Source of the DNA: an uncultured Pelagibacteraceae bacterium
GTDB taxonomy: Bacteria; Pseudomonadota; Alphaproteobacteria; Pelagibacterales; Pelagibacteraceae
DNA length: 58,841 bases
Assembly (NCBI GenBank): GCA_902577625.1
Contig: CACGZX010000002.1
Location: forward strand, 1 to 58,841
Direction of reading: 5' to 3'
Position numbers and translations under genes: made by a program. Shown here piece by piece: positions 3-48,908 of this stretch (the stretch's first letter is position 1; each line of letters opens with the position of its first letter). Below the pieces are notes generated by a model. The model was not told where the DNA came from, searched no databases, and worked only from the letters and a program-made list of their open reading frames with translations.

Positions 3-734
3 ATTAGATCTAAAATTGAAGTAGCTGTTGGAATGCAAAAGTTTCAAGCTAGAGAAATAGCATTTGGACTAAAAATAGAACCTAATTTAATAGCAAGAGC
101 GGCAGATACAATTATTGGATGTTATAGAGCATTTAGCGAGTTAGATGCAACTATGGTTGAAGTAAACCCATTAGTAATATCAAATCAAGATCAAATATTA
201 GCTTTAGATTGTAAAATGAGCTTTGATAACAATGCTTTATTCAGAAGAAATCAAGTTTCTGAATTAAGGGACAAAACTCAAGAGAACCCCAGTGAAGTAT
301 ATGCATCCGATAGAGGTCTTAATTACGTTAGCCTTGATGGAAATATTGGGAATATAATTAATGGCGCAGGTCTAGCAATGGCTTCAATGGATATGATTAA
401 GTTGGCAGGTGGTGAACCAGCAAACTTCTTAGATGTTGGTGGAGGAGCTACACCTGAAAAAATAGTTAAAGCTTTTAAATTAATTTCAATGGATGAGAAA
501 GTTAAAGTTATACTTGTAAATATTTTTGCAGGTATAAATAGATGTGATTGGGTCGCTGAAGGCATAGTTCAAGCATTAGAGAAAATAGATATAAAAGTTC
601 CAATAGTAATAAGATTAGCTGGAACAAATGTTGAAAAAGGAAACAAAATATTAAAAGAAAGTAAAATAAAATACATTGAAGCAAACACTCTAGAGGATGC
701 TGCAAATAAGGCTGTTAAAGCATTAGGTAATTAA
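3..734 (+). CDS. mtkA: Malate-CoA ligase (malate thiokinase) beta subunit, 5'-truncated by window edge
   Basis: Listed ORF starts at 33, but the frame is open to the window edge (IRSKIEVAVG before MQKFQ). Succinyl-CoA synthetase beta-like C-terminus (NGAGLAMASMDMIKLAGGEPANFLDVGGGATPEKI, LVNIFAGINRCDWVAEGI). CKMSFDNNALFRR and the paired MtkB-like alpha subunit favour Mtk over SucC. Confidence 0.85.
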   Translation: MRSKIEVAVGMQKFQAREIAFGLKIEPNLIARAADTIIGCYRAFSELDATMVEVNPLVISNQDQILALDCKMSFDNNALFRRNQVSELRDKTQENPSEVYASDRGLNYVSLDGNIGNIINGAGLAMASMDMIKLAGGEPANFLDVGGGATPEKIVKAFKLISMDEKVKVILVNIFAGINRCDWVAEGIVQALEKIDIKVPIVIRLAGTNVEKGNKILKESKIKYIEANTLEDAANKAVKALGN

Positions 735-736
735 AA

Positions 737-1627
737 ATGTCTGTATTAATAGATAAAAAAACAAAAATAATAGTACAAGGTTTCACTGGGAAAATGGGAA
801 GTTTCCATGCAGAAGAAATGATCAAATATGGCACTAATGTAGTTGGAGGAGTTACACCTGGAAAAGGTGGAATGAAACATCTTAACCTTCCTGTATTTAA
901 TACAGTTAAAGAAGCAGTCAAAAATACAGGTGCATCAGCATCAATATTATTTGTTCCACCAGCTTTCGCGGCAGACTCAGCAATGGAAGCTGCTGATGCT
1001 GGAATTAAAACATGTGTTGCAATAGTAGACGGAATACCTTCTCACGATATGATCAAAATTAAACGTTATATGAGAAGATATTCAAGAACTGAAAAAATGA
1101 CTTTAGTAGGACCTAATTGTGCTGGAGTGATTAGTCCTGGAAAAGCAATGTTAGGTATTATGCCGGGTCATATATATAAAGAAGGAAAAATTGGAATAAT
1201 TGGAAGGTCTGGTACATTAGGATATGAGGCAGCACAACAATTAAAAAATTTAAACATTGGTGTTTCAACAAGTGTTGGTATTGGAGGTGATCCAATTAAC
1301 GGAAGTTCATTTAAAGATATTTTAGAAAAATTTGAGCAAGACGATGAAACAGAAGCAGTTTTAATGATTGGCGAAATAGGAGGACCACAAGAAGTAGCTG
1401 CAGGAAAATTTGCAAAAGAAAATATGAAGAAACCAGTTATAGCTTATATTGCAGGTTTGACAGCGCCAAAGGGAAGAGTAATGGGTCATGCGGGCGCAAT
1501 AGTATCAGCTTATGGAGAAAGTGCTGTTGAGAAAGTTGAGCTTTTAAAAGAATGTGGAGTTATTATTTCTAAAAACCCATCAGTTATGGGTGAAACTGTA
1601 AAGTTAGCTTTAAATAGTAAAACTTAA
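737..1627 (+). CDS. mtkB: Malate-CoA ligase alpha subunit
   Basis: SSVLIDKKT-like start (MSVLIDKKTKIIVQGFTGKMGSFHAEEMI), RYMRRY, VGPNCAGVISPGKAMLGIMPGHIY, GRSGTLGYEAA, GHAGAIVSAYGESA; resembles methylotroph MtkB. Confidence 0.85.
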   Translation: MSVLIDKKTKIIVQGFTGKMGSFHAEEMIKYGTNVVGGVTPGKGGMKHLNLPVFNTVKEAVKNTGASASILFVPPAFAADSAMEAADAGIKTCVAIVDGIPSHDMIKIKRYMRRYSRTEKMTLVGPNCAGVISPGKAMLGIMPGHIYKEGKIGIIGRSGTLGYEAAQQLKNLNIGVSTSVGIGGDPINGSSFKDILEKFEQDDETEAVLMIGEIGGPQEVAAGKFAKENMKKPVIAYIAGLTAPKGRVMGHAGAIVSAYGESAVEKVELLKECGVIISKNPSVMGETVKLALNSKT

Positions 1628-1629
1628 AA

Positions 1630-1648
1630 TATAAACAAATAGTTTATA
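1630..1648 (+). other. Small inverted repeat between mtkB and ppc
   Basis: TATAAAC-AAATA-GTTTATA, 7-bp perfect stem, 5-nt loop. Confidence 0.4.
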
Positions 1649-1652
1649 CCAA

Positions 1653-4343
1653 ATGATAAAAAGAGATCTCTATTACGAACGTATACCTACAAAATCTTTA
1701 AGAGACGATGTTAGGTATTTGGGAAATATTTTAGGGAGAGTAATAAAAAAACAAGAGGGAGAAAGTTTTTTTAATTTAGTAGAGAGAATAAGACTACTAT
1801 CAAAAGCAAACATTAAAAATAAAAATAATAAAAATAGATTCAATAAAATTACTTCAGAAATTCAAAGACTTAAACCAATTAAAATATTTAAATTAGCAAG
1901 AGCATTTAATCATTTTATGAATTTTATTAATCTTAGCGAATCCATAGATGCCTCTAGAAAATTAGATGAATTTGAAAATTCTGACTTGAAAGATAAACAT
2001 AATAATATTTTCATTGAGGAAATTTTTGAAAAGCTTTTTAAAAATAAAAAAATCAGACCTCAAAAAATTTATAATATTGCAAAAAATCTTCAAATTGGAA
2101 TAGTTCTTACAGCTCATCCAACTGAAGTTAAAAGAAGAACTTTAATACAAAAATACCACAAAATAACTGAGATAATGGACCAAAGAAATCTTTTGAAGGA
2201 CAAGCCATCACGATTAAAAATCTTAGATAAAAAGCTTTATGATGAGTTTACAATTATTTGGAATACTGATGATTTAAAAAGATTTAAACCTACACCTGCT
2301 GAGGAAGCAAGGTGGGGATTAGCAGTAATCGAAGACAGTCTTTGGGAAACAATTCCAAAAGTTTATAGAAGATTAAATGCTATTTTTATAAAACATATGG
2401 GAAGAGGTTTGCCTAAAAATTTTAATCCAATTGAATTTGGATCTTGGATGGGAGGAGATAGGGATGGCAATCCAAATGTAACAGCAACTATAACTAAAGA
2501 AGTAATACTTTTATCAAGATGGGAAGCAGCAAAACTTTATGAGAAAGAATTAACAAAATTAATTAGAGGACTTTCAATGGAAAAATGTTCAAAAAGAATT
2601 CTAAAAACTACTGGAAAAACTTTTGAACCTTATAGAGTTTATTTAAGACCATTAAGAGACCAAATAAGAAAAACACATAGATTAATAGAAAGACATTTAG
2701 TAGCAAAAAAACCATTAGATCAAAAAAAACTTTTATCTTCTAAAGAGGAAATTCTAAAACCTTTGAGGGTCGTACGAGAGTCGTTAGAACAAAACCAAAG
2801 TGAAAATATTGCGAGTAGTGATTTGCTTGATTTAATGAGACGAGCTAAATGTTTTGGTATAAATCTAGCAAAATTAGACATAAGACAAGAGTCATCAAGA
2901 CATTCACAGCTATTAGCAGAATATGTTAAGAAAAAAAATAATTCAAATTATTTAAATTGGGATGAAAATAAAAAAATTAAATATTTAATAAATAAAATGA
3001 AGAAAAATAGAAAAAGTTTCAAAAATTTTAATTTTAAAAATAAAGAAAATAATGAAGTTTGGTCAACTTTTAAAATTTTAGCTGATGAACCTTCAGAATG
3101 TTTAGGAGCTTATGTAATTTCAATGACTTCGGCAGCATCTGATGTTTTGGAAGTTTATTTAATGCAAATGCAGGCAAATATTAAAAGTAAATTAAGAGTA
3201 GTTCCACTTTTTGAAACTTTGCAAGATTTAAAAAATGCAAAATCTATTATGGAAAAACTTTTTTCATTAGGTTGGTATAGAAAATTAATCAAAAACAAAC
3301 AAGAAATTATGATTGGTTATTCTGATTCAAGTAAAGATGCTGGAAAATTATCTGCTAGTTGGCATCAATACAAACTTCAAGAAGAAATTTTAATTATTGC
3401 AAAAAAATACAAAATTGATCTTACTTTTTTCCATGGCAGGGGTGGTTCAGCAGGAAGAGGTGGTGGCCCAATTCAGGCAACGATGAGATCACAACCTCCA
3501 AATTCTGTTTATGGTCGTATTAGAATTACTGATCAAGGAGAGATGATCCAACAAAAATATGGTTATGAACCTTTAGCTAAATATAATTTATGTAGTTACA
3601 TAGGATCTGTAATGCAGGCTACTCTAAACCCGCCCCCACAACCTAAGGAAAGTTGGAGAAAATTAATAGAAGAAATGACAAAAATTTCTACATTAGCTTA
3701 TAGAAAAAATATAAATGAGAACTCAGATTTTATAAGATATTTTAAAACTGTTACACCTCACTTAGCACTTGGAAAATTATCAATAGGATCACGACCTTCT
3801 AAAAGAAAAAATGTAGATAACATTCAAAGTTTAAGAGCAATACCTTGGGTGTTTGCTTGGACACAAATAAGATTAATGCTGCCAGCTTGGCTAGGAACTG
3901 GCGATGCATTAAAATATTCATCAGTTAAAAATTACAAAAATATTATTACAGATATGGAAAAAAATTGGCCATTTTTTAATTCTACAATGGATATTTTAGA
4001 TATGGTTATTTCAAAAGTTGACCCGGAAATATCAGAAGTTTACGAAAATAGCCTTGCTGATAAAAAATTAAGAGAAGTAGGTGATAAACTTAGGGCAGAG
4101 TTTGCTATAATTAAAAAATTAAATAAATACATAACTCCAAGAGAAATAATTAACCAAAGAAAAAAATTTAGAACAACTGTCTTAGTTAGAAACATTTATT
4201 CTGAAGTTTTAAACATACTACAAGCCGTGGTTATGAACAAAATATCAAAGAAAAAATTTAAATCTAAGGATAAGAAATATCTTAATGATGCAATGATGAC
4301 ATCAATAGCCGGCATTTCCGCAGCAATGAAGAATACTGGTTAA
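1653..4343 (+). CDS. ppc: Phosphoenolpyruvate carboxylase
   Basis: 896 aa; VLTAHPTEVKRRT, GSWMGGDRDGNPNVTA, FHGRGGSAGRGGGP, GEMIQQKYG. Confidence 0.95.
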   Translation: MIKRDLYYERIPTKSLRDDVRYLGNILGRVIKKQEGESFFNLVERIRLLSKANIKNKNNKNRFNKITSEIQRLKPIKIFKLARAFNHFMNFINLSESIDASRKLDEFENSDLKDKHNNIFIEEIFEKLFKNKKIRPQKIYNIAKNLQIGIVLTAHPTEVKRRTLIQKYHKITEIMDQRNLLKDKPSRLKILDKKLYDEFTIIWNTDDLKRFKPTPAEEARWGLAVIEDSLWETIPKVYRRLNAIFIKHMGRGLPKNFNPIEFGSWMGGDRDGNPNVTATITKEVILLSRWEAAKLYEKELTKLIRGLSMEKCSKRILKTTGKTFEPYRVYLRPLRDQIRKTHRLIERHLVAKKPLDQKKLLSSKEEILKPLRVVRESLEQNQSENIASSDLLDLMRRAKCFGINLAKLDIRQESSRHSQLLAEYVKKKNNSNYLNWDENKKIKYLINKMKKNRKSFKNFNFKNKENNEVWSTFKILADEPSECLGAYVISMTSAASDVLEVYLMQMQANIKSKLRVVPLFETLQDLKNAKSIMEKLFSLGWYRKLIKNKQEIMIGYSDSSKDAGKLSASWHQYKLQEEILIIAKKYKIDLTFFHGRGGSAGRGGGPIQATMRSQPPNSVYGRIRITDQGEMIQQKYGYEPLAKYNLCSYIGSVMQATLNPPPQPKESWRKLIEEMTKISTLAYRKNINENSDFIRYFKTVTPHLALGKLSIGSRPSKRKNVDNIQSLRAIPWVFAWTQIRLMLPAWLGTGDALKYSSVKNYKNIITDMEKNWPFFNSTMDILDMVISKVDPEISEVYENSLADKKLREVGDKLRAEFAIIKKLNKYITPREIINQRKKFRTTVLVRNIYSEVLNILQAVVMNKISKKKFKSKDKKYLNDAMMTSIAGISAAMKNTG

Positions 4344-4687
4344 AGGGATATTTCTCTTAACTTTTTAAGATAATTTTCAAACTCTTCTACAAAACTTTCA
4401 GTTGGTTTTATATTTTTTTTTCTTTGATCTTCTTGAGCTTTTTCTAAATAAAAAAAACCTTTTTCACATGCTTCGTTAATAATTAATGCAGATTTTGGTC
4501 TAGAAGTTTTAAATAGTTTTGTTTTTAATTCTTCAACAGTAATTGGCAAGTTTTGTTTGTAGTATGCCATAATTAAAAGCATCATATGATAGTGCGAAGG
4601 TGATTTTCTAAAAAAATAATTACTTGAACGATGTGATTGTTTCATCTGCTCTTCCCAAAAATCTAATAAATTTTTTGTACTTTTCAT
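4340..4687 (-). CDS. MarR-like winged-helix regulator (putative)
   Basis: 115 aa with HTH-like pattern (ITVEELKTKLFKTSRPKSALIINEACEKGFFYLEKAQEDQRKKNIKPT). Seven nt downstream of tdm on the same strand. Confidence 0.5.
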   Translation of the reverse strand: MKSTKNLLDFWEEQMKQSHRSSNYFFRKSPSHYHMMLLIMAYYKQNLPITVEELKTKLFKTSRPKSALIINEACEKGFFYLEKAQEDQRKKNIKPTESFVEEFENYLKKLREISL

Positions 4688-4693
4688 AATTAT

Positions 4694-7033
4694 TTAAGAT
4701 CTTACTCTAGATTTAGTTGGATCGTAATGAGGAAAAGGAACTATTTTTGCAGGAATTCTTTTTTGATGTCCATCTATTTTCCCAACTTCGACTTCAGTTT
4801 CTAATTCTGAATGACCAATATCTATTCTACATAGTGCAATATTTTTATTTAAAGTTGGAGAGATACATCCACTAGTTATCACACCAACTTGAGATCTACC
4901 AATATGAACACAATCTCCATGATTTGCTTTTTCTTTTCCAGTAAGCTCAAGACCTACAAGTTTTTTTTGAGGATTTTCTTTTCTTTTAATTAAACTTTCT
5001 TTACCAATAAAATCATCTGTTTTAGTTTTTAATGGAACTGTAAAACCTACGCCAGCTTCAAATGGATCAACTTGACCATCAAATTCATTTCCAAATAATA
5101 TTAATCCTGCTTCGATCCTTAATAAATCTAGCGCACCAAAACCAGCGGGTATAATCCCTTCATCTTTTCCAGCTTCCATAACTTTATCCCATACCTTAGG
5201 AGCATCAGATGGATGACACCAAATTTCATAACCTAGCTCACCTGTGTAGCCAGTTCTCGAAACAATTAAAGGAATACCATTCAAATCTTCAACTCTGCAT
5301 ATAGTGAATCTAAACCACTGCAGTTCAGAAATAGTTGGCTGAGTTGGTGGCGTAAATATAAATTTTTCAAGAATTTTTCTACTATTTGGACCTTGTAAAG
5401 AGATGTTATTAATTTGATCTGTTGAATTTTTTATTAAAACTTTATAATTTTTTTTCTTTGCCTGCTCTTTTAACCATTCTCCAGCATATTCATCACCACA
5501 TACCCACCTAAAGCCATGATCACTCAATTTTAATAATGTTCCATCATCAAACATGAAACCATTTTCATAACACATTGAAGAATAAACCACTTGACCAACT
5601 GAAAGTTTTTTTATATTTCTTGTTAAAGTATAATTCATTAACTCTTCAGCATCAGGTCCTAAGATTTCAAACTTTCTTAGAGAAGATAAATCAATAACAA
5701 CTGATTTTTCTCTACAAGCTGTGTATTCATTGATTACACCATGTTTTGTATAATCATTTGGTAACCAGAAGCCTCTAGCATCAACAAAATTTCTCGTAAG
5801 TTTTGAAGTTCTTTCGTAAAAGCCAGTATTCCTAGTTAACTTTGTTTCTGAGTCTGTTTTCATTCTAAATGCAAAAGATTTTGTAAATTCTTTTTTTTTA
5901 TCATAAGTTCTAACAAAAATATCAGTTGGATTCCATGAATTACAAGCATCAATGTCACTTGGACAAGCTGTTGTTCCGCAAGTTAAATCTTTTAGAGCTC
6001 TAAATGTTACATAGTCACCAGGTCTAGCGAAAGATTCATCTGATAATACTGAATTTAAGCCTCCTGTCGATGTATTAAAAAAAAGGTTTATTGCATGCCA
6101 GCCTCTTTTTTTTTGAACTCCAAACTTTTCCATAGAGGCATTTAAATTATCAGAGCAATTTGGATGTCCAAAATATCCAGCATCTTCATAATATTTAGAT
6201 GTACAGGCTAAATTAAAGGTATCATGTTTTCCCACTGTATCTCTAATTACCTCAACCAAAGGTTCATGATCAGTATCATAAAATTTTGAAAATAATCCTG
6301 GTCCAGGAAAAGTACTTGCCATAAAAGTTCTTGTTGTTTGCCAATCCAAACCTTTTTCAATTCTTTTATCTAATTTTGCTGTGTCAAATGCTACAAAATC
6401 AGAACATTGCCTTCCCGTTGGTGAAATAACCTGAATGTAATCACCTTCTTTTACCTGAAAAGAAACTGCTGTTGCTCTATCGATATTTGTCTCACTAAGC
6501 GGATCAAACATCGGATCAGGAATTACATGGTGTTCTTTATCTTTTGTAATTTTAGCTCTTTTAACAAAAATAGTTAAATCGGTTGGAGGATTTTGTTCAT
6601 GAATTAACATTTCGGTACCAGGAGCAGAAAAGATACAATAACATTTATCTTTTGATTTTATTTTTACTTTTTCACCCCAACTTGTTTCTTTATCAAAAAT
6701 AATTGAAGCTTTAGATTTTGAAATATCTAAATTTCTTTTTTTTAGTTGTCGAAGCGCAATTAGAGAACTCTCATCTTTTTTTGAAAGTATTTTTTTAATT
6801 TCAGAGGAATCTTTATTTTCTTTTAAATTTAAAATTGCTGGTTCTGATTTTCCTTCTTTGTTGAAAACTGATATCTCACATATCTGATTTCCTTCATTAT
6901 TTATAACTTCTATTTCATCATCTGGAAGAATTTGAATACCGGTGAGACCACCACCATTTACTATATATCTTTCAACTCCAGGTGGTAGTACATTTAGTCC
7001 CGGTTCTTTTATATTAGCACTTGTATTTAGCAT
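4694..7033 (-). CDS. tdm: Trimethylamine-N-oxide demethylase (DUF1989-GcvT fusion)
   Basis: 779 aa. Central DUF1989-type region (GRQCSDFVAFD, FNLACTSKYYEDAGYFGHPNCSDN, DLTCGTTACPSDIDACN), C-terminal GcvT-type region (RTGYTGELGYEIW, GFGALDLLRIEAGLILFGNEFDGQVDPFEAGVGFTV). Divergent from a TmoX-like gene. Confidence 0.85.
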   Translation of the reverse strand: MLNTSANIKEPGLNVLPPGVERYIVNGGGLTGIQILPDDEIEVINNEGNQICEISVFNKEGKSEPAILNLKENKDSSEIKKILSKKDESSLIALRQLKKRNLDISKSKASIIFDKETSWGEKVKIKSKDKCYCIFSAPGTEMLIHEQNPPTDLTIFVKRAKITKDKEHHVIPDPMFDPLSETNIDRATAVSFQVKEGDYIQVISPTGRQCSDFVAFDTAKLDKRIEKGLDWQTTRTFMASTFPGPGLFSKFYDTDHEPLVEVIRDTVGKHDTFNLACTSKYYEDAGYFGHPNCSDNLNASMEKFGVQKKRGWHAINLFFNTSTGGLNSVLSDESFARPGDYVTFRALKDLTCGTTACPSDIDACNSWNPTDIFVRTYDKKKEFTKSFAFRMKTDSETKLTRNTGFYERTSKLTRNFVDARGFWLPNDYTKHGVINEYTACREKSVVIDLSSLRKFEILGPDAEELMNYTLTRNIKKLSVGQVVYSSMCYENGFMFDDGTLLKLSDHGFRWVCGDEYAGEWLKEQAKKKNYKVLIKNSTDQINNISLQGPNSRKILEKFIFTPPTQPTISELQWFRFTICRVEDLNGIPLIVSRTGYTGELGYEIWCHPSDAPKVWDKVMEAGKDEGIIPAGFGALDLLRIEAGLILFGNEFDGQVDPFEAGVGFTVPLKTKTDDFIGKESLIKRKENPQKKLVGLELTGKEKANHGDCVHIGRSQVGVITSGCISPTLNKNIALCRIDIGHSELETEVEVGKIDGHQKRIPAKIVPFPHYDPTKSRVRS

Positions 7034-15389: not shown

Positions 15390-16730
15390 CTATTTTTTTG
15401 GTTGATTTAAAAAAACTTTTGAAGAATCGTCCATTGCTGTCGCCCAAGGTGTATGATGTACTGGGGCAATAGATCCTGTAACAGGTGAAGAAAAAGATTT
15501 GTTTCTATATGTCATAATATCTTCTACTTTATGGTGTTCCCATTCTTTAAAATGTTTTCTAATTAATTCAAAATCAATTTTTGGATAATCAGATAGCCCG
15601 TGAAGTTCTTTAGTATATTCAGTTTGAAAGTCTATCATTTGATCTGGGTTTTCTAATTTTTCCTCTAGAGCAACCCATTTATTTATATCTTTTTCTATTT
15701 CTGAGCTATTTGGAATTTTACTTTTACCCATTATCACATCCCTTGCATACCACGCCTGACAATCAAACATATTAAAAGTATGAAATTGATCTTGCATACC
15801 TAAATAAAGTAATTTGTGATTATCTTGCCATACGACACCTTTATATAATTTTGGTGGATATAATCTATTTCTAGTTTTTAGCTTAAGGTCCTCAGTTAAA
15901 AATGGGAAATGATGAAGATAACCTGAACATAAAATTATTGCATCAGCCTCTTGTTCATGTCCATCTTTAAAGATTGCTTTATTTCCAACCAGTTTATCTA
16001 AATAATGCACTTCTTTTACTCCTTTAGGCCATTTAAAACCCATTGGGTTATTTCTGTAACCTATAGTTACACTTTTAGCTCCATACTTGTGGCATTGAAG
16101 AGCTACATCTTCTGCCGAATAACTGCTTCCTAAAACAATAACATTTTTTCCTCTAAATTCTTCGGCATCTCTAAAATCATGTGAATGCATTATTCTACCT
16201 GGAAAAGATTTCATTCCTGGATATTCTGGAATAAAGGGAACTGAAAAATGACCAGTTGATACAACTACATAATCAAAAGTATCTTTTGAAAATTTATCAT
16301 TTTTTTTATCATGGGAAGTAATTTCAAATTTATCTACATTGAAAATAACTTTAGAAACACTTGTACTAAATCTTACTTTATTTTTTAGATTACCTTTCTT
16401 TACTCTGCCGGTTATATAATCGTATAAAACTTCTCTAGGAGGAAATGATGGGATAGGTTTTCCAAAGTGTTCATCAAATGAATAGTCTGCAAATTCTAAA
16501 CATTCTTTTGGACCATTTGACCATAGATACCTGTACATACTGTTGGGAACAGGGTCACCGTATTGATCAGATCCAGTTCTCCAGCTATAGTTCCACAATC
16601 CACCCCAATCTTCTTGTTTTTCAAAACAAACTATTTCAGGTATTTTTTCACCATTTTTTTCAGCTTGTTCAAAAGATCTTAACATAGAAAGCCCACAAGG
16701 ACCTGTTCCTATAATAGCTACTTTTGTCAT
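15390..16730 (-). CDS. tmm: Flavin-containing monooxygenase, trimethylamine monooxygenase type
   Basis: GTGPCGLS, CFEKQEDWGGLWNYSWRTG, SMYRYLWSNGPKECLEFADYSFDEHFGKPIPSFPPREVL, FRGKNVIVLGSSYSAEDVALQ, MAP-like C-terminus SIAPVHHTPW. Confidence 0.85.
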   Translation of the reverse strand: MTKVAIIGTGPCGLSMLRSFEQAEKNGEKIPEIVCFEKQEDWGGLWNYSWRTGSDQYGDPVPNSMYRYLWSNGPKECLEFADYSFDEHFGKPIPSFPPREVLYDYITGRVKKGNLKNKVRFSTSVSKVIFNVDKFEITSHDKKNDKFSKDTFDYVVVSTGHFSVPFIPEYPGMKSFPGRIMHSHDFRDAEEFRGKNVIVLGSSYSAEDVALQCHKYGAKSVTIGYRNNPMGFKWPKGVKEVHYLDKLVGNKAIFKDGHEQEADAIILCSGYLHHFPFLTEDLKLKTRNRLYPPKLYKGVVWQDNHKLLYLGMQDQFHTFNMFDCQAWYARDVIMGKSKIPNSSEIEKDINKWVALEEKLENPDQMIDFQTEYTKELHGLSDYPKIDFELIRKHFKEWEHHKVEDIMTYRNKSFSSPVTGSIAPVHHTPWATAMDDSSKVFLNQPKK

Positions 16731-25380: not shown

Positions 25381-26310
25381 ATGAATAAAATTGTTGCAAT
25401 TCAAGCTGACCCTATTGAAAAAATAAATCCAAAAACAGATACAACTTTATTGTTAGCTTTAGAAGCTCAAAAAAGAAAACACAGAATATATTGGTTTGAG
25501 TCAAAAGATTTAAGCTTTATAAATTCAAAATTATTTGCAGATGTGAAAGAATTAAGATTGTTTGGTAATGACAAAAAATATTTTAAAATAATTAGGAAAA
25601 AAAAGTTTAATTTATCAAGTTCTAAAGTAATTTTAATTCGGCAAGATCCACCCTTCGATATAGATTATATTAATTCTACACTTTTACTAGATTCAATTAA
25701 AAACAGAACGGAAATTATTAATAATCCAGAATCAGTAAGAAATATATCTGAAAAATTGTTTTCAATTAAATTTATGCAATTAATGCCACCAACTATTTTT
25801 ACAAAAAATTTAAATGAGATAATAAATTTTTATCAAAAACATAAGAAAATAGTACTTAAACCCGTAAATGGATATGCGGGAAAAAATATTTATTTTATTA
25901 ATAGAAATCTAAATCTAGGTGCATTAAGGAAATATTTAAGAAAAACAGGTTTTGTAATGGTTCAAAAATTTCTACCTTTAGTAAAATATGGAGATAAAAG
26001 GGTTTTTATTATTAATGGCAAAGTTGTTGGTGCTATCAAAAGAGTCCCATCTAAAAATTCAATTTTATCAAATATATCACAAGGTGGAAAAGCATTTAAA
26101 ACAAATTTAAATAAATTCGAAAAAAAAGTTTCTAACCATGTAGCCAAAGTATTGAAAAAAAATAATATTTATTTTGCAGGAATTGATTTAATTTCTGGAA
26201 AATTAATTGGGGATATCAATGTAACATCTCCCACAGGTTTAATTCAATTCAAACAATTGACTGGAATAAATCTGGCAGAATATTTTTGGGATAAGTTAAA
26301 ATTAAAATAA
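25381..26310 (+). CDS. gshB: Glutathione synthetase
   Basis: ATP-grasp; [41 protein letters not shown]. Confidence 0.85.
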
Positions 26311-27984
26311 TCCTTCTATTTCACCTTTATCATTTAATTTAATTGAATCTGCGGCAGGAACTCTTGGAAGGCCTGGCATTGTCATTATTGCTCCACAAAC
26401 AACAACAATAAATTCTGCTCCTGAAGATAATCTTACTTCTCTTATTGGAACTACATGCCCTGAAGGAGCACCTTTTAAACTTGGGTCAGTTGAAAAACTG
26501 TATTGAGTTTTAGCAATACATATTGGAAGATTTCCATAACCTTTTGATTCAAAATCTTTAAGCTGATCTCTAATTTTTGTATCAGCCACTACTTCACTTG
26601 CATGATAAATTTCTTGTGCGATCGTTTCAATTTTTTTAAATAGAGGTATTTTATCTTCATATAAAAATTTAAAAGTATTTTTGATATTACATATATCCAC
26701 AACAATGTTTGCTAGATCTTTTGTTCCTTCACCACCATCTGACCAGTGTTTACAAATAGATGATTTTACACCTAGAGTTTTACAAAAATCCATAAGTGCA
26801 TTTACTTCTTTATCTGTATCTGTGATAAAATGATTAACAGCCACCGCAACCGGTAAACCAAATTTTCTAACGTTATTAATATGTCTTTCAAGGTTTACCA
26901 ATCCTTTTTTTAAAGCTTTAACATTCTCATTTTTAAGATCATCTTTATCTACACCACCATGCATTTTTAAAGCTCTTATGGTTGCAACAATAACCACACA
27001 ATCAGGTTTCAAATTTGATTTTCTACATTTTATATCTAAAAATTTCTCAGCTCCCAAGTCAGCACCAAAACCAGCTTCAGTTACAACGTAATCTGCTAAT
27101 TTTAATCCTGTTTTTGTTGCAATAACAGAATTACATCCATGAGCAATATTTGCAAATGGTCCTCCATGAATTATTGCTGGGTTGTTTTCTAATGTTTGTG
27201 TCACATTAGGTCTAATTGCATCTTTTAATAAAACAGTCATTGGACCGTTAGCGTTTAAATCTTTTGCATAAATTGGTTTTTTATCTCTAGTGTATGCGAC
27301 TGTAATATTTCCAATTCTATTTTCTAAATCTTTTAAATCATTTGATAAGCAAAAAATGGCCATTATTTCAGAAGCAACCGTAATATCAAAACCATCTTGC
27401 CTAGGATATCCATTCGCTACGCCTCCTAGATCTACCACAATTGATCTCAATGAACGATCATTCATGTCCATAACTCTTTTCCAAACAATTCTTCTGACAT
27501 CAATGTTTAATTTATTACCCCAATAGATATGATTATCTATTAAAGCAGAAAGAAGATTGTGAGCTGAGGTTATTGCATGAAAGTCTCCTGTAAAATGTAA
27601 ATTTATTTGTTCCATAGGAACTACTTGTGCATAACCTCCACCTGCAGCTCCACCTTTCATTCCAAAAGAAGGTCCTAAGCTAGGTTCTCGGAGACATACA
27701 ATTGATTTTTTTCCAATTTTATTTAAACCATCATTTAGACCAACTGATGTAGTTGTTTTTCCTTCACCAGCAGGAGTTGGAGTAATTGCAGTTACTAAAA
27801 TTAATTTTCCATCTTTTTTATTTTTTAAAGTATCTAAGTACTCAGTTTTAATTTTGGCAATATATCTTCCTATTGGGCTATATACTTCAGCTTTATCAGG
27901 TACGTTTAGTCCATTAAGGACTTCTTGAATGGGCTTCATTTTTGCTTGTCTTGCTATTTCAATATCAGATTTTACTTTGCCCAT
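26302..27984 (-). CDS. fhs: Formate-tetrahydrofolate ligase
   Basis: [63 protein letters not shown]. Confidence 0.97.
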
Positions 27985-28123
27985 TTTAGCTTTCTTTAAT
28001 TTTATATATTCAAACTCATTTGAAGCTGGATTAATATCTTCTTTTATGGATTTTTTAAAGTTCTAAAAAATATATATAAAAAAAATAAAGAACTATTTAT
28101 ACTAATTACGATAAAATTTGATC

Positions 28124-29380
28124 ATGCAAAAATATTCAGTCTTCAGCCTTATTAAAAATGCTTTTAAAGGTCATAAAGAATGGGAAGTGGCCTGGAAAGA
28201 CCCAACACCAAAATCTGAATATGATGTTATTATTATAGGAGGCGGAGGTCATGGTTTAGCAACAGCATATTACCTTGCTAAGGAACATAATATTACAAAA
28301 GTTGCTATTATCGAAAAAGGCTGGATAGGGGGAGGTAACGTTGGAAGAAACACCACTATAATCAGATCAAATTATATGCATGATGAAAATGGATTGTTTA
28401 GTGAGTTCGGTATGGACTTGTGGAGAAATATGAGTCAGGATTTAAATTTTAATGTAATGTTTTCTCCAAGAGGAATAATTAACCTCGCGCATTCTGATGC
28501 ACAAATGAATGTTTACTCTAGGAGAGGAAATTCAATGCGTTTAAATGGAATTGATGCAGTTCTGTTAAATAGAGAAGAAGTCAGAAAGATTATTCCTATG
28601 GCAGATTTTTCTGAAAATGTAAGATTTCCAATTTTTGGTGGACTGATGCAACCAAGTGCAGGAACAGCAAGACATGACGCGGTTGCCTGGGGGTACGCAC
28701 GTCAAGCAGATTCGATGGGAGTAGACATTATTCAAAATTGTGAAGTTACAGGGTTTGACGTTTATAATGGAAAAATTTTAGGAATAAGAACTTCAAAAGG
28801 AGATATTAAAGCAAAAAAAATTGGTCTTTGCGTTGCCGGAAGTACAAATATTTTAGCAGAGAAATTAAATATGACATTACCTATAGAAACACATCTTTTA
28901 CAGGCATGTGTTTCTGAACCAATCAAGCCAATTTTAGACAATGTTGTCACATTTGGAGCTGGCCACTTTTATTGCAGTCAATCTGATAAAGGTGAAATGG
29001 TTATGGGTGGAGATCTTGATGGCTACAACAGTTATGCTCAAAGAGGAAATCTTCCAACATTGCAACATGTTTTAACTGAAGGAATAGCAATGTTTCCATT
29101 TCTAAGTAAATTAAAAATGCTTAGAACATGGGGAGGAATTATGGACATGTCTATGGATGGATCACCTATTATTGATAAAACACATATTGAAGGTTTATAT
29201 TTAAATTGTGGATGGTGCTATGGAGGATTTAAAGCAACTCCTGCATCTGGCTGGACTTTTGCTCATACAATTGCTCAAGACAGACCTCACAAACTAAATG
29301 CAGGTTATAGTTTAAATAGATTTAGTACTGGACATTTAATTGACGAAAAAGGTCTTGGAACTAAAACTTGGATTTCTTAA
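28124..29380 (+). CDS. soxB: Sarcosine oxidase beta subunit (or N-methylglutamate dehydrogenase homologue)
   Basis: VIIIGGGGHGLATAYYLAKEH, WIGGGNVGRNTTIIRSNY; ATG at 28124 (listed ORF begins with TTG at 28118). Confidence 0.88.
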   Translation: MQKYSVFSLIKNAFKGHKEWEVAWKDPTPKSEYDVIIIGGGGHGLATAYYLAKEHNITKVAIIEKGWIGGGNVGRNTTIIRSNYMHDENGLFSEFGMDLWRNMSQDLNFNVMFSPRGIINLAHSDAQMNVYSRRGNSMRLNGIDAVLLNREEVRKIIPMADFSENVRFPIFGGLMQPSAGTARHDAVAWGYARQADSMGVDIIQNCEVTGFDVYNGKILGIRTSKGDIKAKKIGLCVAGSTNILAEKLNMTLPIETHLLQACVSEPIKPILDNVVTFGAGHFYCSQSDKGEMVMGGDLDGYNSYAQRGNLPTLQHVLTEGIAMFPFLSKLKMLRTWGGIMDMSMDGSPIIDKTHIEGLYLNCGWCYGGFKATPASGWTFAHTIAQDRPHKLNAGYSLNRFSTGHLIDEKGLGTKTWIS

Positions 29381-29647
29381 ATGTTACATATTAAATGTCC
29401 TCACTGTGGATTAAGATCTCAAAATGAATTTTCATATGGTGGTGATGCAACAGTAAAAAGACCTGAATTAAATAAAGAAGTTTCGGATAAAGATTGGGAC
29501 AATTTTGTTTATTTACGTAAAAGTCTGATAGGAAAACATCTTGAATTATGGCAACACATTTCTGGATGTAGACAATGGATTAAAGTCGAAAGAGATACAT
29601 TAACCCACGAAATATTTAAAACATTAAAAGCAAACGAAGAAGTATAA
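29381..29647 (+). CDS. soxD: Sarcosine oxidase delta subunit
   Basis: 88 aa; IKCPHCGLRSQNEFSYGGDA, HISGCRQWIKVERDT. Confidence 0.9.
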   Translation: MLHIKCPHCGLRSQNEFSYGGDATVKRPELNKEVSDKDWDNFVYLRKSLIGKHLELWQHISGCRQWIKVERDTLTHEIFKTLKANEEV

Positions 29648-29649
29648 AG

Positions 29650-32646
29650 ATGTCAGAAAAATTTAGATTAGATAAAGGTGGATTAATCAATAGAAATAAA
29701 AAAATTTCATTTAAATTTAATGGAAAAAAATATTTTGGTTATGAAGGCGATACTTTAGCTTCAGCTTTAATTGCAAATGGAGTTCATTTAGTTGGTAGAA
29801 GTTTTAAATATCATAGGCCTAGAGGTTTTTTTGGAGCAGGTGTAGACGAACCTTATGCAATAGTTCAAATGAATAGAAATAATGAAGTTGATCCCAATGT
29901 AAGAGCAACAGAACAAGAGTTATTCGAAGGTTTAGAGGCAAAAAGTGTAAATTGTTGGCCAAATGTAAATTTTGATATTGGAGCGATAAATAATTTTTTA
30001 GGAAAATTTTTTCCTGCAGGTTTTTACTATAAAACTTTTATGTGGCCTAAAAGCTTTTGGTATAAGGTTTACGAGCCAATTATTAGAAAAGCAGCAGGTT
30101 TTGGAGCAGCTTCAATAAAGCATGATAAAGAAAAATATGAACACAAATATGAATATTGTGACCTATTAATTACAGGATCTGGTCCTTCCGGTTTAGCAAG
30201 CGCCTATGCTGCAGCTCAAAATGGAGCAAAAGTAATTTTAGCTGAAGACAAATCGAGGTTTGGTGGAAGTCTTCTAACCAGCGAAGTTACAATTGGAAAT
30301 CAAAGTGGACAAGAATGGGCAGAAAAAATAATATCTGAACTTAAATCAATGCCAAATGTAGTTGTCAAAAATAGATCACAAGTTTTTGGTTATTATGATC
30401 ATAACATGCTTGTTATGTCTGAGAGAATTAGTGATCATTTGCCCAAAACAGAAAAATATATTCCAAAACAGAGACTTTGGTATATCCGTGCAAAAGAAGT
30501 TATTATTTCATCTGGATCAATAGAAAGACCTTTGGTTTTTGGAAATAATGACACTCCAGGTGTTATGCTTTCCTCGGCAGCTAAAGAGTACTTAAAAATT
30601 TATGGAGTATTAGTTGGAAAAAAACCATTAGTATTTACAAATAATGATAGTGGATATGAAACTGCTATAGAATTCAAAAAAAATGGAATAGATCCTATCG
30701 TATTAGATACAAGAAAAAATCCTAATTCAGAAATTATAAAAGAAGCAGAAGACTTAAATATAAATATAAAAAATTCTTATGTTGTTGTAGCGGCCAAAGG
30801 TTACAAAAAAGTTAAATCTGCAGATATTGCCAAAATATCAGATGATAAAAAAAATATAAATAACATTGAAAATATAAAATGTGATTGTATTTGTGTCTCA
30901 GGATTTTGGACACCAACAATTCATTTAGCATCACAATCAGGCAATAAAACTAAATTTAATGAAGAAATAGATGCATTCATTCCAAGCAAATCAAAACAAA
31001 AAGAAACAACTCTTGGATCAGCCAATGGTACTTTTACACTTGAAGAAACATTAAAAACATCCTTCAAAAAAGGAAATGAATTATCGAAACAAATAACAAA
31101 TAAAGAAAATAAAGTTTCTATTCCTTCTGTTGTGGAAAAAAAGTATTCCAATCATGATAAATTTTGGTGTGTACCATTACCAGAAGGTAAAAATTATAAA
31201 AGATTCCTAGATTTTCAAAATGATGTTGCTGTCTCTGATATACAGCTCGCATTAAGAGAAGGTTATAGATCAATCGAACATGTTAAAAGATATACAACAT
31301 TAGGAATGGCCACAGATCAAGGCAGGACAAGTAATCTAAATGGATTACAATTAGTCTCTGATATAGAAAATAAAGTTGTACCTCAAGTCGGTCATACTAC
31401 TTTTAGACCTCCTTATTCACCTGTTTCAATCGGAGCTATTGTTGGAAGAGAAATTGGAAAACATTCAAAACCAACAAGAAAATCACCAATGCATTATTGG
31501 CACGAAAAGAATAATGCCGTCTTTGTAGATGCAGGCGTTTGGCTGCGTCCGAGATATTATAAGCAGGGAAATGAAAACTTATTTGAGGCTTCAAAAAGAG
31601 AAGCAAGAAATGTGAGACAAAACGTAGGCGTTTGTGATGTTACAACTTTAGGTAAAATTGATATTAAAGGACCTGATGCTGCTGAATTGTTAAATAGGGT
31701 TTATACTAATGCTTGGCTTAAGTTACCAGTTGGGAAAGCAAGATATGGAGTAATGTTAAGAGAAGATGGAATTGTAATGGATGACGGAACAACCACGAGA
31801 ATTTCAGAAAACCATTATCATATGACAACTACTACTGCTCAAGCTGCAAATGTTTTATCTCATTTAGAATATTATTTGCAACTTGTGTGGCCTGAGCTGA
31901 ATGTAAATGTAGTTTCAAGTACTGAACAATGGGCAGGTGCAGCAATAGCTGGACCAAAGTCTAGAGATGTATTGCAAAAATTATTTCCAGATTTAGATGT
32001 TTCAAATGAAGGTTTGCCATTTATGGGATATATGGAAGGCAATTTATTTGGTGTAAATGCAAAAATTTTTAGAATTTCATTTTCTGGTGAACTTGCTTAC
32101 GAGGTAAATGTTGAGTCTGACAATGGTAACTTTATGTGGGAAAAAATAATGGATGTCGGAAAAGATTTTAATATTCAACCATATGGAACAGAGGCATTAT
32201 CAACATTAAGAATTGAAATGGGACACGTTGCAGGGTCAGAATTAGATGGACGTACTATTCCATATGATAATTCTTTAGAAGGTTTAGTTAGCAAAAAGAA
32301 AGATTTTATCGGAAAAAGATCTTTAAGTAAATTAGCTTACGTTGCTCCAGATAGACAAAAAATAGTTGGTGTTGTTCCCTTAGATAAAAAAACAAGTATA
32401 CCTGAAGGTTCATATATAGTTAAAGATGCAAAAGCAAAACTTCCAAATCCTAAATTAGGTCATGTATCAGCATCATGTTGGAGTGTTGAATATGACAATC
32501 CTTTTTCGCTTGCAATTATCAAGGATGGAAAAAATATGATAGGACAAAAACTTTTTGCACTATCTCCATTAAAAAATAAAACAATACCTGTTGAAATTGT
32601 ATCATCACATTATGTTGATCCAAAAGGGGAAAGAGTTAGATCATGA
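29650..32646 (+). CDS. soxA: Sarcosine oxidase alpha subunit
   Basis: 998 aa; SFKYHRPRGFFGAGVDEP, ITGSGPSGLASAYAAAQNGAKVIL, C-terminal GcvT domain. Confidence 0.9.
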   Translation: MSEKFRLDKGGLINRNKKISFKFNGKKYFGYEGDTLASALIANGVHLVGRSFKYHRPRGFFGAGVDEPYAIVQMNRNNEVDPNVRATEQELFEGLEAKSVNCWPNVNFDIGAINNFLGKFFPAGFYYKTFMWPKSFWYKVYEPIIRKAAGFGAASIKHDKEKYEHKYEYCDLLITGSGPSGLASAYAAAQNGAKVILAEDKSRFGGSLLTSEVTIGNQSGQEWAEKIISELKSMPNVVVKNRSQVFGYYDHNMLVMSERISDHLPKTEKYIPKQRLWYIRAKEVIISSGSIERPLVFGNNDTPGVMLSSAAKEYLKIYGVLVGKKPLVFTNNDSGYETAIEFKKNGIDPIVLDTRKNPNSEIIKEAEDLNINIKNSYVVVAAKGYKKVKSADIAKISDDKKNINNIENIKCDCICVSGFWTPTIHLASQSGNKTKFNEEIDAFIPSKSKQKETTLGSANGTFTLEETLKTSFKKGNELSKQITNKENKVSIPSVVEKKYSNHDKFWCVPLPEGKNYKRFLDFQNDVAVSDIQLALREGYRSIEHVKRYTTLGMATDQGRTSNLNGLQLVSDIENKVVPQVGHTTFRPPYSPVSIGAIVGREIGKHSKPTRKSPMHYWHEKNNAVFVDAGVWLRPRYYKQGNENLFEASKREARNVRQNVGVCDVTTLGKIDIKGPDAAELLNRVYTNAWLKLPVGKARYGVMLREDGIVMDDGTTTRISENHYHMTTTTAQAANVLSHLEYYLQLVWPELNVNVVSSTEQWAGAAIAGPKSRDVLQKLFPDLDVSNEGLPFMGYMEGNLFGVNAKIFRISFSGELAYEVNVESDNGNFMWEKIMDVGKDFNIQPYGTEALSTLRIEMGHVAGSELDGRTIPYDNSLEGLVSKKKDFIGKRSLSKLAYVAPDRQKIVGVVPLDKKTSIPEGSYIVKDAKAKLPNPKLGHVSASCWSVEYDNPFSLAIIKDGKNMIGQKLFALSPLKNKTIPVEIVSSHYVDPKGERVRS

Positions 32647-45459: not shown

Positions 45460-46500
45460 ATGAAAAAAGATTTAATTACAAGACTAAATGAAGGTCCTGT
45501 TCTTTGTGCAGAGGGTTATCTTTTTGCAATGGAAAGAAGAGGATATTTATCGGCTGGAGGATTTGTTCCAACAGTAGTTTTAGAAAATCCAGAAGTAGTT
45601 ACTCAATTACATAGAGAATTTATTAGAGCAGGATCTGATGTCGTTCAAGCATTTACTTATTACGGTCATAGAGAAAAATTGAGAATTATTGGAAAAGAAG
45701 ATTTACTTGAACCAATGCAGAAAAATGCACTTAAAATTGCAAAAGATGCTGCAGATGAATTCAAAGATTTAGATTTAATGGTATGTGGTGATGTTGCTAA
45801 CACAAACATTTTTGATCCAAAAGACAGATCAACATTTAAAGAATGTCAAAAAATGTATGAAGAACAAATTAGATGGGCTAAAGAAGCTGGAGTTGATTTT
45901 GTTGTAGCAGAAACAATTAATTGGGTTGATGAAATGAAAATTGCTCTAAAAGCCATTAAGGATGAAGGTTTAATAGCAGTTGCAAATTACGCAATACCAA
46001 GAGGTGATTTAACGAGAGATGGATACACGGCTGAAGATGCTTGTAAAATAATTGAAGACCTTGGAGCAGATGTTGTTGGTTTAAATTGTTATAGAGGTCC
46101 AAAAATGACTATGAAATTGCTTAAAGAAATTAGAAAAAAAGTTTCTTGTAATGTAGCAGGTTTACCTGTTCCATACAGAACTACCGAGGAAGAGCCAGGT
46201 TTTTTAAATCAAACAGACCATGGTTGTGATTGTATACCTGGGGGAAATGCTTTTCCTGTAGCTCTGGATAATTTATTTTGCAATAGATTTGAAATGGCAG
46301 AATTTGCAAAAGATTGTTTAAAACAAAATATTAATTTTATTGGAATTTGTTGTGGTGCGGAAGCTCACCATGTAAGGGAAATGGCAGTAGCAATTGGAAA
46401 AAAACCAATTTCTATGAAGTATATGCCTGACATGAGTAAACATTTTCATCATGGAACTGATAAAACTTTAAAAGAAGTTAATAAAGAAATTAAATATTAG
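45460..46500 (+). CDS. bhmT: Betaine-homocysteine S-methyltransferase family protein
   Basis: AGSDVVQAFTYYGH, VVGLNCYRGP, FIGICCGAEAHHVREMA Zn-binding cysteines. Confidence 0.88.
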   Translation: MKKDLITRLNEGPVLCAEGYLFAMERRGYLSAGGFVPTVVLENPEVVTQLHREFIRAGSDVVQAFTYYGHREKLRIIGKEDLLEPMQKNALKIAKDAADEFKDLDLMVCGDVANTNIFDPKDRSTFKECQKMYEEQIRWAKEAGVDFVVAETINWVDEMKIALKAIKDEGLIAVANYAIPRGDLTRDGYTAEDACKIIEDLGADVVGLNCYRGPKMTMKLLKEIRKKVSCNVAGLPVPYRTTEEEPGFLNQTDHGCDCIPGGNAFPVALDNLFCNRFEMAEFAKDCLKQNINFIGICCGAEAHHVREMAVAIGKKPISMKYMPDMSKHFHHGTDKTLKEVNKEIKY

Positions 46501-46502
46501 TT

Positions 46503-48908
46503 ATGGAAAATCATGCCAAAGTAGTAATAATTGGTGGAGGAGTTGTTGGTTGTTCAATTCTTTATCATCTTTCAAAATTTGGAATGAAAGATTGTATTTT
46601 ACTTGAAAGAAACGAATTAACATCTGGTTCATCATGGCATGCAGCCGGAAATGTTCATGTAATCTCTAATGATCCAAATATTTCTAGAATGATGGCCTAC
46701 ACGATAGGTCTTTATAAAGAAATAGAAAAAGAGTCAGGACATTCTTGTGGGTTTAAACCAAGTGGAGGGTTCTACTTAGCTTCAAATGATGTTTGGGCTG
46801 AATATCTTAAAAGAGAAAGATCAAAAGCAAGATATATGGGTCTAGATCAGGAATTTATTTCTCTTGAAGAAGTAAAAAAGAAAAATCCACTAATTGATCC
46901 ATCTAGATATTTATTAGCATTATGGGATCCAATAGACGGGGAGGTTGACCCATCGGGTGTAACATATGCTTTTGCTAAAGCCGCTAAAGTTCATGGTGGA
47001 AAATATTACACCCATACAGTTGTTAAAGACACCAAACAAAAAGAAGACGGTTCATGGAATGTTGTTACTGATAAAGGAAATATTAATGCTGAGATTGTAA
47101 TCAATGCTGGGGGTTTATGGGCAAGAGAAGTTGGTAATTTAGCTGGATTAAATTTACCAGTACAGCCAATGGAGCATCACTATTTAATTACTGAAGCTAT
47201 TCCAGAAATTGAAGCATTAGGAGATCAAAGACTTCCGATTGGAACAGATTTTGAAGGTAACATTTATTTTAGACAAGAAGGAAAAGGTATGTTGCTTGGA
47301 ACTTATGAACAAAGATCTACACCATGGAAGGTAGAAGGAACGCCTATGAATTTTGGACACGAACTTTTAGAGCCTAAGCTTGATAACATTCAAGACAGGT
47401 TAGCTATTGGATTTGAGAGAATGCCTGCTTTAGAAAAAGCAGGAATAAAAAATATTGTAAATGGACCATTTACTTTTGGTCCTGATGGAAGTCCTTTAAT
47501 TGGTCCAGTTCCTGGTATGAAAAATTATTGGGTAGCTGTTGGAGTTATGGCAGGTTTCTGTCAAGGTGGCGGAGTTGGAAAATGCATTGCCGAGTGGATT
47601 ATAGATGGTGAACCATCAATAGATGTTTGGGCAATGGATGTTGCAAGATTTGGAGATTACGCATCTCCACAATACGGAACAATTAAATCATCGGAAAATT
47701 ATGAAAGAAGATTTATAATGACTTTTCCGAACGAGACTTTACCAAAAGGTAGAAAACAAAAAACAACAGCCTTATACGATCGATTTGTTGAACAAGGAGC
47801 TGTGATGGGAGACTCTTTTGGTTTAGAAAATGTTTTGTGGTTTGCTAACAATAAAGAAGATGCTTATGAAGAACCAACAATTAAAAGATCAAGATCTCAC
47901 AATTACGTCTCAAAAGAAGTAATAAATGTAAGAGAAAATGTTGGTATAACTGAAGTAGCCAACTTTTCAAAACATGAATTCAAAGGTCCAGATGCTAGAA
48001 AATTTTTAGATCATATCATGGCCGGCAAATTACCAAAACCTGGAAGAATTTCCTTAACACCAATGCTTACATACAGGGGAAAACTTTATGGTGATTTAAC
48101 TGTTGCATGTTTAGACGAAAATGAATTTATGGTTTTTGGATCTGGAGCAGCACAAGAAATGCACAGAAGATGGTTTGAAAGCCATCTAGAAAAATTTAAT
48201 TTACAATACAAAAATAGATCTGATGAATATCATGGCCTTGGTATTGCAGGTCCAAAATCTAGAGAGCTTTTGCAAAAAATTGTTAGAGAAAGTGTTTCTA
48301 ATGATAGTTTTAAATTTCGAGATTCTAGAAAAATGTTTGTTGCAGGCGTTCCCGCTATAGTAAACAGAATATCTTTTACGGGAGAGCTTGGATATGAAAT
48401 TTATGTAGCTCCTCATTTTCAATTAAAATTGTATGAAGAATTAACTAATGCTGGAAAAGAATTTAACATAAAACCGTTTGGCGGAAGAGCACTAATGTCT
48501 ATGAGATTAGAAAAAAATTGGGGAGCTTGGACATTAGATTATCGTCCTGATTTTACAGCAAAAGAAACTGGTTTAGATGTTTTTATAAATTGGGATAAAG
48601 ATTTTATTGGAAAAGATAGCGCTCAAAAAGATGAAAGTAAAAATAAATTAGTTCCATTGATAGTTGAAACAAACGATATTGATGTGACTTATAACGAAGC
48701 TGTATTAAAAGGTGATAAAAGTATTGGATACATAACTTCTGGTGGTTTTGCACATTTTGTAAATAAAAGCGTTGCATTTTCTTATATTGATCAAAATGAA
48801 ATAAAATCTGACAAAGGTATACAAGTCGAAATAAATGGCGACTTTTTTAACTGTTCAATAATTAAAGAACCACTTTATGATCCTACAGGACAAAAAATGA
48901 GGAGCTAA
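46503..48908 (+). CDS. Dimethylglycine/sarcosine dehydrogenase family (FAD + GcvT)
   Basis: 801 aa; VVIIGGGVVGCSILYHLSKFGMKDCILLERNELTSGSSWHAAG, C-terminal GcvT domain (RISFTGELGYEIYV). Confidence 0.9.
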   Translation: MENHAKVVIIGGGVVGCSILYHLSKFGMKDCILLERNELTSGSSWHAAGNVHVISNDPNISRMMAYTIGLYKEIEKESGHSCGFKPSGGFYLASNDVWAEYLKRERSKARYMGLDQEFISLEEVKKKNPLIDPSRYLLALWDPIDGEVDPSGVTYAFAKAAKVHGGKYYTHTVVKDTKQKEDGSWNVVTDKGNINAEIVINAGGLWAREVGNLAGLNLPVQPMEHHYLITEAIPEIEALGDQRLPIGTDFEGNIYFRQEGKGMLLGTYEQRSTPWKVEGTPMNFGHELLEPKLDNIQDRLAIGFERMPALEKAGIKNIVNGPFTFGPDGSPLIGPVPGMKNYWVAVGVMAGFCQGGGVGKCIAEWIIDGEPSIDVWAMDVARFGDYASPQYGTIKSSENYERRFIMTFPNETLPKGRKQKTTALYDRFVEQGAVMGDSFGLENVLWFANNKEDAYEEPTIKRSRSHNYVSKEVINVRENVGITEVANFSKHEFKGPDARKFLDHIMAGKLPKPGRISLTPMLTYRGKLYGDLTVACLDENEFMVFGSGAAQEMHRRWFESHLEKFNLQYKNRSDEYHGLGIAGPKSRELLQKIVRESVSNDSFKFRDSRKMFVAGVPAIVNRISFTGELGYEIYVAPHFQLKLYEELTNAGKEFNIKPFGGRALMSMRLEKNWGAWTLDYRPDFTAKETGLDVFINWDKDFIGKDSAQKDESKNKLVPLIVETNDIDVTYNEAVLKGDKSIGYITSGGFAHFVNKSVAFSYIDQNEIKSDKGIQVEINGDFFNCSIIKEPLYDPTGQKMRS

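Follow-up and report, generated by a model that had tools for sequence, protein, structure and literature searches.

The serine-cycle gene clusters of Methylobacterium and Aminobacter niigataensis come closest to the cassette analyzed here, a pair of genes for malate-coenzyme A (CoA) ligase, mtkA and mtkB, followed by a gene for phosphoenolpyruvate (PEP) carboxylase, ppc. It opens a stretch of 58,841 nucleotides (nt), further called the window, that is the entire contig C2 of an uncultured SAR11 (Pelagibacteraceae) genome (1.01 Mb, 78% complete). SAR11 are the commonest cells in the ocean, and methylotrophs use these genes to build biomass from one-carbon (C1) compounds. In Methylobacterium the order is mtkA-mtkB-ppcA-mcl. 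The SAR11 MtkA, MtkB and malyl-CoA lyase (Mcl) are orthologous to the proteins encoded there, and the PEP carboxylase gene likewise lies behind mtkB. However, mcl is located downstream in Methylobacterium and upstream in SAR11, PpcA represents another PEP carboxylase lineage (~28% identity), and SAR11 is devoid of gck. The plasmid cluster sga-mcl-mtkA-mtkB-hpr-gck of Aminobacter niigataensis shares the order mcl-mtkA-mtkB with SAR11, encodes proteins that are 64-69% identical, and similarly adjoins N-methylglutamate/methylamine-type genes. Unlike in this cluster, sga, hpr and gck do not flank the SAR11 cassette, which in some cases is extended by an unrelated ppc.

Two further systems are informative. 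In the modified serine cycle engineered in E. coli, Ppc, Mdh, Mtk and Mcl together yield glyoxylate and acetyl-CoA (Yu and Liao, 2018; PMC6162302). That cycle avoids the Sga-Hpr-Gk branch, as would the module that we propose for SAR11, but the engineered system is synthetic and relies on Agt together with serine dehydratase and PEP synthase, a route whose SAR11 counterpart is hypothetical. The 'methylovory' of SAR11 (Sun et al., 2011; PMC3160333) involves the same genes for trimethylamine N-oxide (TMAO), methylamine and tetrahydrofolate metabolism; in strain HTCC1062 it stands for C1 oxidation without net assimilation, unlike the C1-assimilating role proposed for the cassette, and 'malate' is not mentioned in the main text of that paper. 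No report of mcl-mtkAB genes in SAR11 was found in the papers searched, subscription literature being outside the search.

Identity of the ligase pair and its upstream neighbor

The ligase subunits are of the malate-CoA type and not SucCD, as the earlier note on this DNA had proposed. The mtkA fragment in the window scores 394 bits with the malate-CoA ligase beta model NF010647 vs. 323 for SucC. Full-length MtkA of locus L016, a relative 99-100% identical to the window, stands in for the copy cut by the contig edge (~99.6% identity over the MtkA overlap) and passes NF010647 (634 vs. a cut-off of 604), whereas SucC of the window's own genome stays below it (520 vs. 604). In maximum-likelihood trees of each subunit, the Mtk sequences of SAR11, Aminobacter, Sinorhizobium, Phyllobacterium, Paracoccus, Ruegeria, Methylobacterium and Paraburkholderia are split from eight Suc sequences, the genome's own included, with a support of 100/100 (the beta tree took in SAR11 sequences, the alpha tree both SAR11 and window sequences). 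Moreover, six columns in the beta and 11 in the alpha subunit hold a single residue throughout Mtk that none of the tested Suc sequences has, and SAR11 keeps the Mtk states. These include, in E. coli numbering, G320A and V/M323N in beta and T158G and V162A in alpha. The beta loop reads NIFAGINRCD in Mtk vs. NIFGGI(M/V)(R/K)CD in Suc, and is, by analogy with SucCD structures, a putative dicarboxylate-binding site. A second ligase pair (52% identical) on contig C12 adjoins sucA and an mdh-like open reading frame (ORF), i.e., it is the housekeeping sucCD, and the window pair is not the sole copy. As far as sequence can tell, the enzyme identities are close to certain.

The contig opens inside mtkA, leaving the N-terminal ~144 amino acids (aa) and the upstream neighbor beyond its edge. 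Wherever a SAR11 locus extends upstream of mtkA (76 of 76 loci), mcl is the immediate neighbor, so that the malyl-CoA lyase that the earlier note had marked for checking is at hand in the relatives of the window. Neither a SucCD affiliation of a sole ligase copy nor a lack of malyl-CoA lyase, findings that would have refuted the earlier note, is thus seen. The mcl gene encodes a CitE-like protein of 312 aa with the malyl-CoA lyase 5UGR as best solved relative (E 3.5e-116), followed by R. sphaeroides Mcl 4L9Y. The catalytic Arg, the Mg-binding Glu/Asp and the lid Asp are kept in the alignment (residues named in PMC3832036), the lid residue being the Asp of a lyase and not the Glu of a thioesterase. 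The top NCBIfam match, the itaconate C-C lyase RipC, reaches 185 bits, far under its cut-off of 375. In the tree, SAR11 cassette Mcl is sister to Mcl of Aminobacter, Sinorhizobium and Phyllobacterium, which share the gene order mcl-mtkA-mtkB. The three SAR11 genes nearly abut, with gaps of mostly 0-8 nt, and ratios of nonsynonymous to synonymous substitution (dN/dS) of 0.02-0.08 across them indicate strong purifying selection. The adjacent mcl in all relatives, the close spacing and the purifying selection therefore define the operon mcl-mtkA-mtkB, of which the window copy has lost mcl off the contig edge; with ppc, the window genes are best read as the remaining end of an mcl-mtkA-mtkB-ppc operon. 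A search of the own genome with PF03328 returned an HpaI-type aldolase on contig C1 only and no Mcl, because contig C2 ends inside mtkA.

Close Mcl homologs (86-100%) are present in 50 of 248 Pelagibacterales genomes that are at least 85% complete. All belong to the genus of the window and their distribution is patchy. About one fifth of the sampled genomes thus hold, with mcl-mtkA-mtkB, the predicted enzymes to convert four-carbon (C4) acids into glyoxylate and acetyl-CoA, a step needed for assimilation of C1 units and bicarbonate. The cassette occurs in two settings. In the window type it lies beside tdm and beside gamma-glutamylmethylamide-synthetase-like and glutamate-synthase-like genes that run divergent from it; in the other it lies beside hisF and a HIT-family gene. 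The operon was scanned for a glycine riboswitch and other known RNAs, with none found. A more distant Mcl (52-57%) occurs in 18 genomes of a sister family, f2. It adjoins accA without mtk in the three loci read and branches elsewhere in the tree, which rules out its kinship with the cassette.

PEP carboxylase behind mtkB and the remainder of the serine cycle

The earlier note described mtkA-mtkB directly upstream of ppc as an arrangement of serine-cycle methylotrophs. The ORF calls bear out the order, with all three genes on the plus strand and spacings of 2 nt (mtkA-mtkB) and 25 nt (mtkB-ppc). The comparison with methylotrophs holds for mtkA and mtkB, which are orthologous, but not for ppc: many carriers have no ppc in this slot, and homology of the complete trio to Methylobacterium mtkA-mtkB-ppcA was rejected. 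Indeed, two SAR11 ppc lineages, 51% identical to each other, are found here, and both fall on the E. coli-like branch with ~27-28% identity to serine-cycle PpcA; the trio was therefore assembled in parallel to that of methylotrophs rather than inherited. Among 66 scored loci, the slot behind mtkB is occupied by the window-type ppc in 20 and by the second lineage, whose start overlaps mtkB, in eight, while 38 have none. The ppc state changes at least five times on the cassette tree (parsimony; FastTree, moderate support). Among loci L016-L095, the most discordant pairs have a third-position identity of 0.82-0.90 for ppc vs. 0.58-0.65 for the adjacent mtkA, and mtkA shows about 0.61-0.65 where ppc reaches up to 0.90; this demonstrates that ppc was exchanged between SAR11 lineages recently, far more so than the flanking mtkA. 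That ppc was repeatedly recruited behind mtkB suggests that malate cleavage is functionally coupled to the supply of C4 compounds.

Of the serine-cycle parts, malate-CoA ligase, malyl-CoA lyase (in the relatives) and a PEP carboxylase of non-serine-cycle lineage are present. The complete cycle, in contrast, is not supported. None of 20 SAR11 genomes, the single-contig carriers G013 and G015 among them, encodes a glycerate 2-kinase of family PF13660, other glycerate kinase families not having been searched. The own genome encodes SufS only and no serine-glyoxylate aminotransferase (SGAT), as well as three D-2-hydroxyacid dehydrogenases, none diagnosable as Hpr. Across SAR11, the only SGAT/BhcA-like aminotransferase shows no link with the cassette, being encoded in 4 of 29 carriers and 7 of 19 non-carriers, and scores best with BhcA, although under the cut-off. 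With neither Gck nor a linked SGAT, the canonical return branch Sga-Hpr-Gck is thus not there in complete form. The own genome also encodes isocitrate lyase and malate synthase, and malate synthase G is found in 16/16 g1 genomes tested, carriers included. Because both shunt enzymes coexist with the cassette, Mtk/Mcl as a substitute for the glyoxylate shunt was rejected.

Direction and role of the cassette

We consider it rather probable that the cassette constitutes a C1-linked module working in the splitting direction, from malate to glyoxylate and acetyl-CoA, within a modified serine cycle. MtkAB would convert malate, adenosine triphosphate (ATP) and CoA to malyl-CoA, which Mcl would split into glyoxylate and acetyl-CoA, while PEP carboxylase would refill the C4 pool from PEP. 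Glyoxylate would be converted to glycine, and glycine to serine by a C1 unit from trimethylamine (TMA), TMAO, methylamine or sarcosine; with the supply of acetyl-CoA, this would correspond to the second half of the serine cycle. Conversion of serine back to PEP would have to avoid the canonical Sga-Hpr-Gck branch, as it does in the E. coli cycle mentioned above, and a candidate route, modeled on PMC6162302, consists of a transaminase, serine hydroxymethyltransferase, serine dehydratase and pyruvate phosphate dikinase. The wider proposal of a natural modified serine cycle in part of SAR11, in which C1 units from TMA, TMAO or methylamine are added onto glycine, serine is converted back to PEP by a route that avoids hydroxypyruvate, and glyoxylate is regenerated by PPC-Mdh-Mtk-Mcl with export of acetyl-CoA, is a tentative one that we regard as possible but doubtful. 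If true, such cells would assimilate methyl carbon and bicarbonate instead of merely burning methyl carbon, and lineages with and without ppc would differ. C1 assimilation in SAR11, as put forward in the earlier note, we accordingly treat as a hypothesis.

Several observations weigh against the splitting direction within such a cycle. No net C1 assimilation is predicted for HTCC1062, which oxidizes C1 units (Sun et al., 2011; PMC3160333), more than half of the scored loci carry no ppc behind mtkB, and both the lack of glycerate 2-kinase and the unlinked aminotransferase leave the canonical cycle open. Glyoxylate could come from the shunt, given the coexisting isocitrate lyase and malate synthase, and malate synthase combined with malate cleavage would form a futile cycle unless regulated. 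In addition, growth of strain HTCC7211 depends on glycine (-0.11 per day in its absence; PMC8437039), which this strain also needs in co-culture work (PMC6775983). In our genome set, the complete genome G013 (locus L139) carries mcl-mtkA-mtkB adjoining tdm with no ppc in the slot, and G011 has no mcl. G013 is probably HTCC7211 and G011 probably HTCC1062. If this naming is right, the cassette alone gives no glycine in pyruvate medium, and it may need C1 substrates or ppc, or run in reverse. Simple glycine prototrophy via the cassette, a candidate role, is weakened by the HTCC7211 growth data. The long-standing question of C1 assimilation by any SAR11 now lends itself to a direct test, since the cassette appears to be present in one cultured strain (probably HTCC7211) but not in the one on which the classic experiments were done (probably HTCC1062).

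The reactions of MtkAB and Mcl are both reversible in principle, and the main rival is a flow in the opposite direction, which we judge rather unlikely. Glyoxylate, whether derived from glycine, from sarcosine or from the shunt, would be condensed with acetyl-CoA to malyl-CoA, from which MtkAB would recover ATP and release malate; the module would thus dispose of glyoxylate as a malate synthase that saves energy. The reversibility of Mcl (PMC3832036), the wealth of demethylation genes yielding glycine or sarcosine in carriers, and the strict glycine auxotrophy of HTCC7211, where, if it is a carrier, the module seems not to make glycine, are consistent with this direction. However, carriers already possess malate synthase G, a ppc recruited behind mtkB supplies rather than drains C4 compounds, and the homologous Aminobacter cassette is embedded in a serine-cycle cluster. 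The latter kinship also bears on a shift in specificity, by which the Mtk/Mcl homologs would serve, for instance, to degrade itaconate or citramalate, with citramalyl-CoA cleaved to pyruvate and acetyl-CoA, or take part in beta-methylmalyl-CoA chemistry. Mcl enzymes are promiscuous (PMC3832036) and RipC is the top, albeit sub-threshold, family match, but the nearest relatives are serine-cycle Mcl and Mtk, the Mtk-specific residues are retained, and neither the operon nor the genes flanking it showed an itaconyl-CoA hydratase or CoA-transferase, making this pathway improbable.

The splitting module also has to be set against two more conventional readings. A complete canonical serine cycle, with sga, hpr and gck merely outside the 78%-complete assembly, could appeal to the mcl lost at the contig edge and to the hydroxyacid dehydrogenases; it is nearly refuted and very improbable, since PF13660 is also missing from the single-contig carriers and the SGAT-like gene is at least as common in non-carriers. 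Finally, the alpha subunit (MtkB) also passes the general SucD model, as would be expected of a second succinyl-CoA synthetase of the tricarboxylic acid cycle, yet the trees and the NF010647 model rule out a SucCD identity, and with the adjacent mcl and the separate sucCD beside sucA this explanation is refuted on sequence grounds and retains hardly any credibility.

Gene layout of the window and additional observations

The C1 genes to which the earlier note referred, i.e., fhs, sarcosine oxidase and demethylase genes, were recovered in the window (Table 1), and a betaine-type transporter gene is encoded further along.

Table 1. Coordinates of the cassette and of C1-related and neighboring genes in the window.
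Feature	Coordinates	Strand	Basis
mtkA, malate-CoA ligase beta, C-terminal 243 aa	3..734	+	NF010647 best; A320/N323 in NIFAGINRCD loop
mtkB, malate-CoA ligase alpha, 296 aa	737..1627	+	tree; GHAGA phospho-His motif at residue 250
ppc, phosphoenolpyruvate carboxylase, 896 aa	1653..4343	+	NF000584, 937 bits vs. cut-off 815; tree: E. coli-like branch
conserved 115-aa gene, convergent with ppc	4340..4687	-	NCBIfam search: no match
tdm, trimethylamine N-oxide demethylase	4694..7033	-	NF053776, 1102.8 bits vs. cut-off 1100
tmm, trimethylamine monooxygenase	15390..16730	-	NF058570, 744 vs. 675
fhs, formate-tetrahydrofolate ligase	26302..27984	-	PRK13505, 918 vs. 652
sarcosine oxidase beta + alpha subunits	28118..32646	+	
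small ORF between sarcosine oxidase beta and alpha	29381-29647		delta subunit by position only

The 115-aa gene separates the cassette from tdm in nearly all window-type loci and has the same reading direction as tdm. A flavin adenine dinucleotide (FAD) oxidase fused to an aminomethyltransferase, of the dimethylglycine/sarcosine dehydrogenase type, is located at 46503-48908; the adjoining homocysteine-methyltransferase-like gene (45460-46500) enlarges the island of methylated-amine genes.

Outside the window, a BhcA-like (aspartate-glyoxylate) aminotransferase of 390 aa (L165:1300-2472; also L162 and L164) is present in 11 of 49 SAR11 genomes, independently of the mcl cassette, and has nuoA/nuoB-like genes as neighbors in two or more of the loci. 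In family f2, the distant Mcl/CitE-like gene is located directly upstream of the accA-like gene (L136, L137, L138); the f2 genomes tested gave no match to isocitrate lyase or malate synthase, and this gene possibly has another role, in glyoxylate or citramalyl-CoA metabolism. A metagenome-assembled genome record labeled 'uncultured Dokdonia' (L062) holds a SAR11-type mcl-mtkA-mtkB-tdm locus and is probably mislabeled or contaminated.

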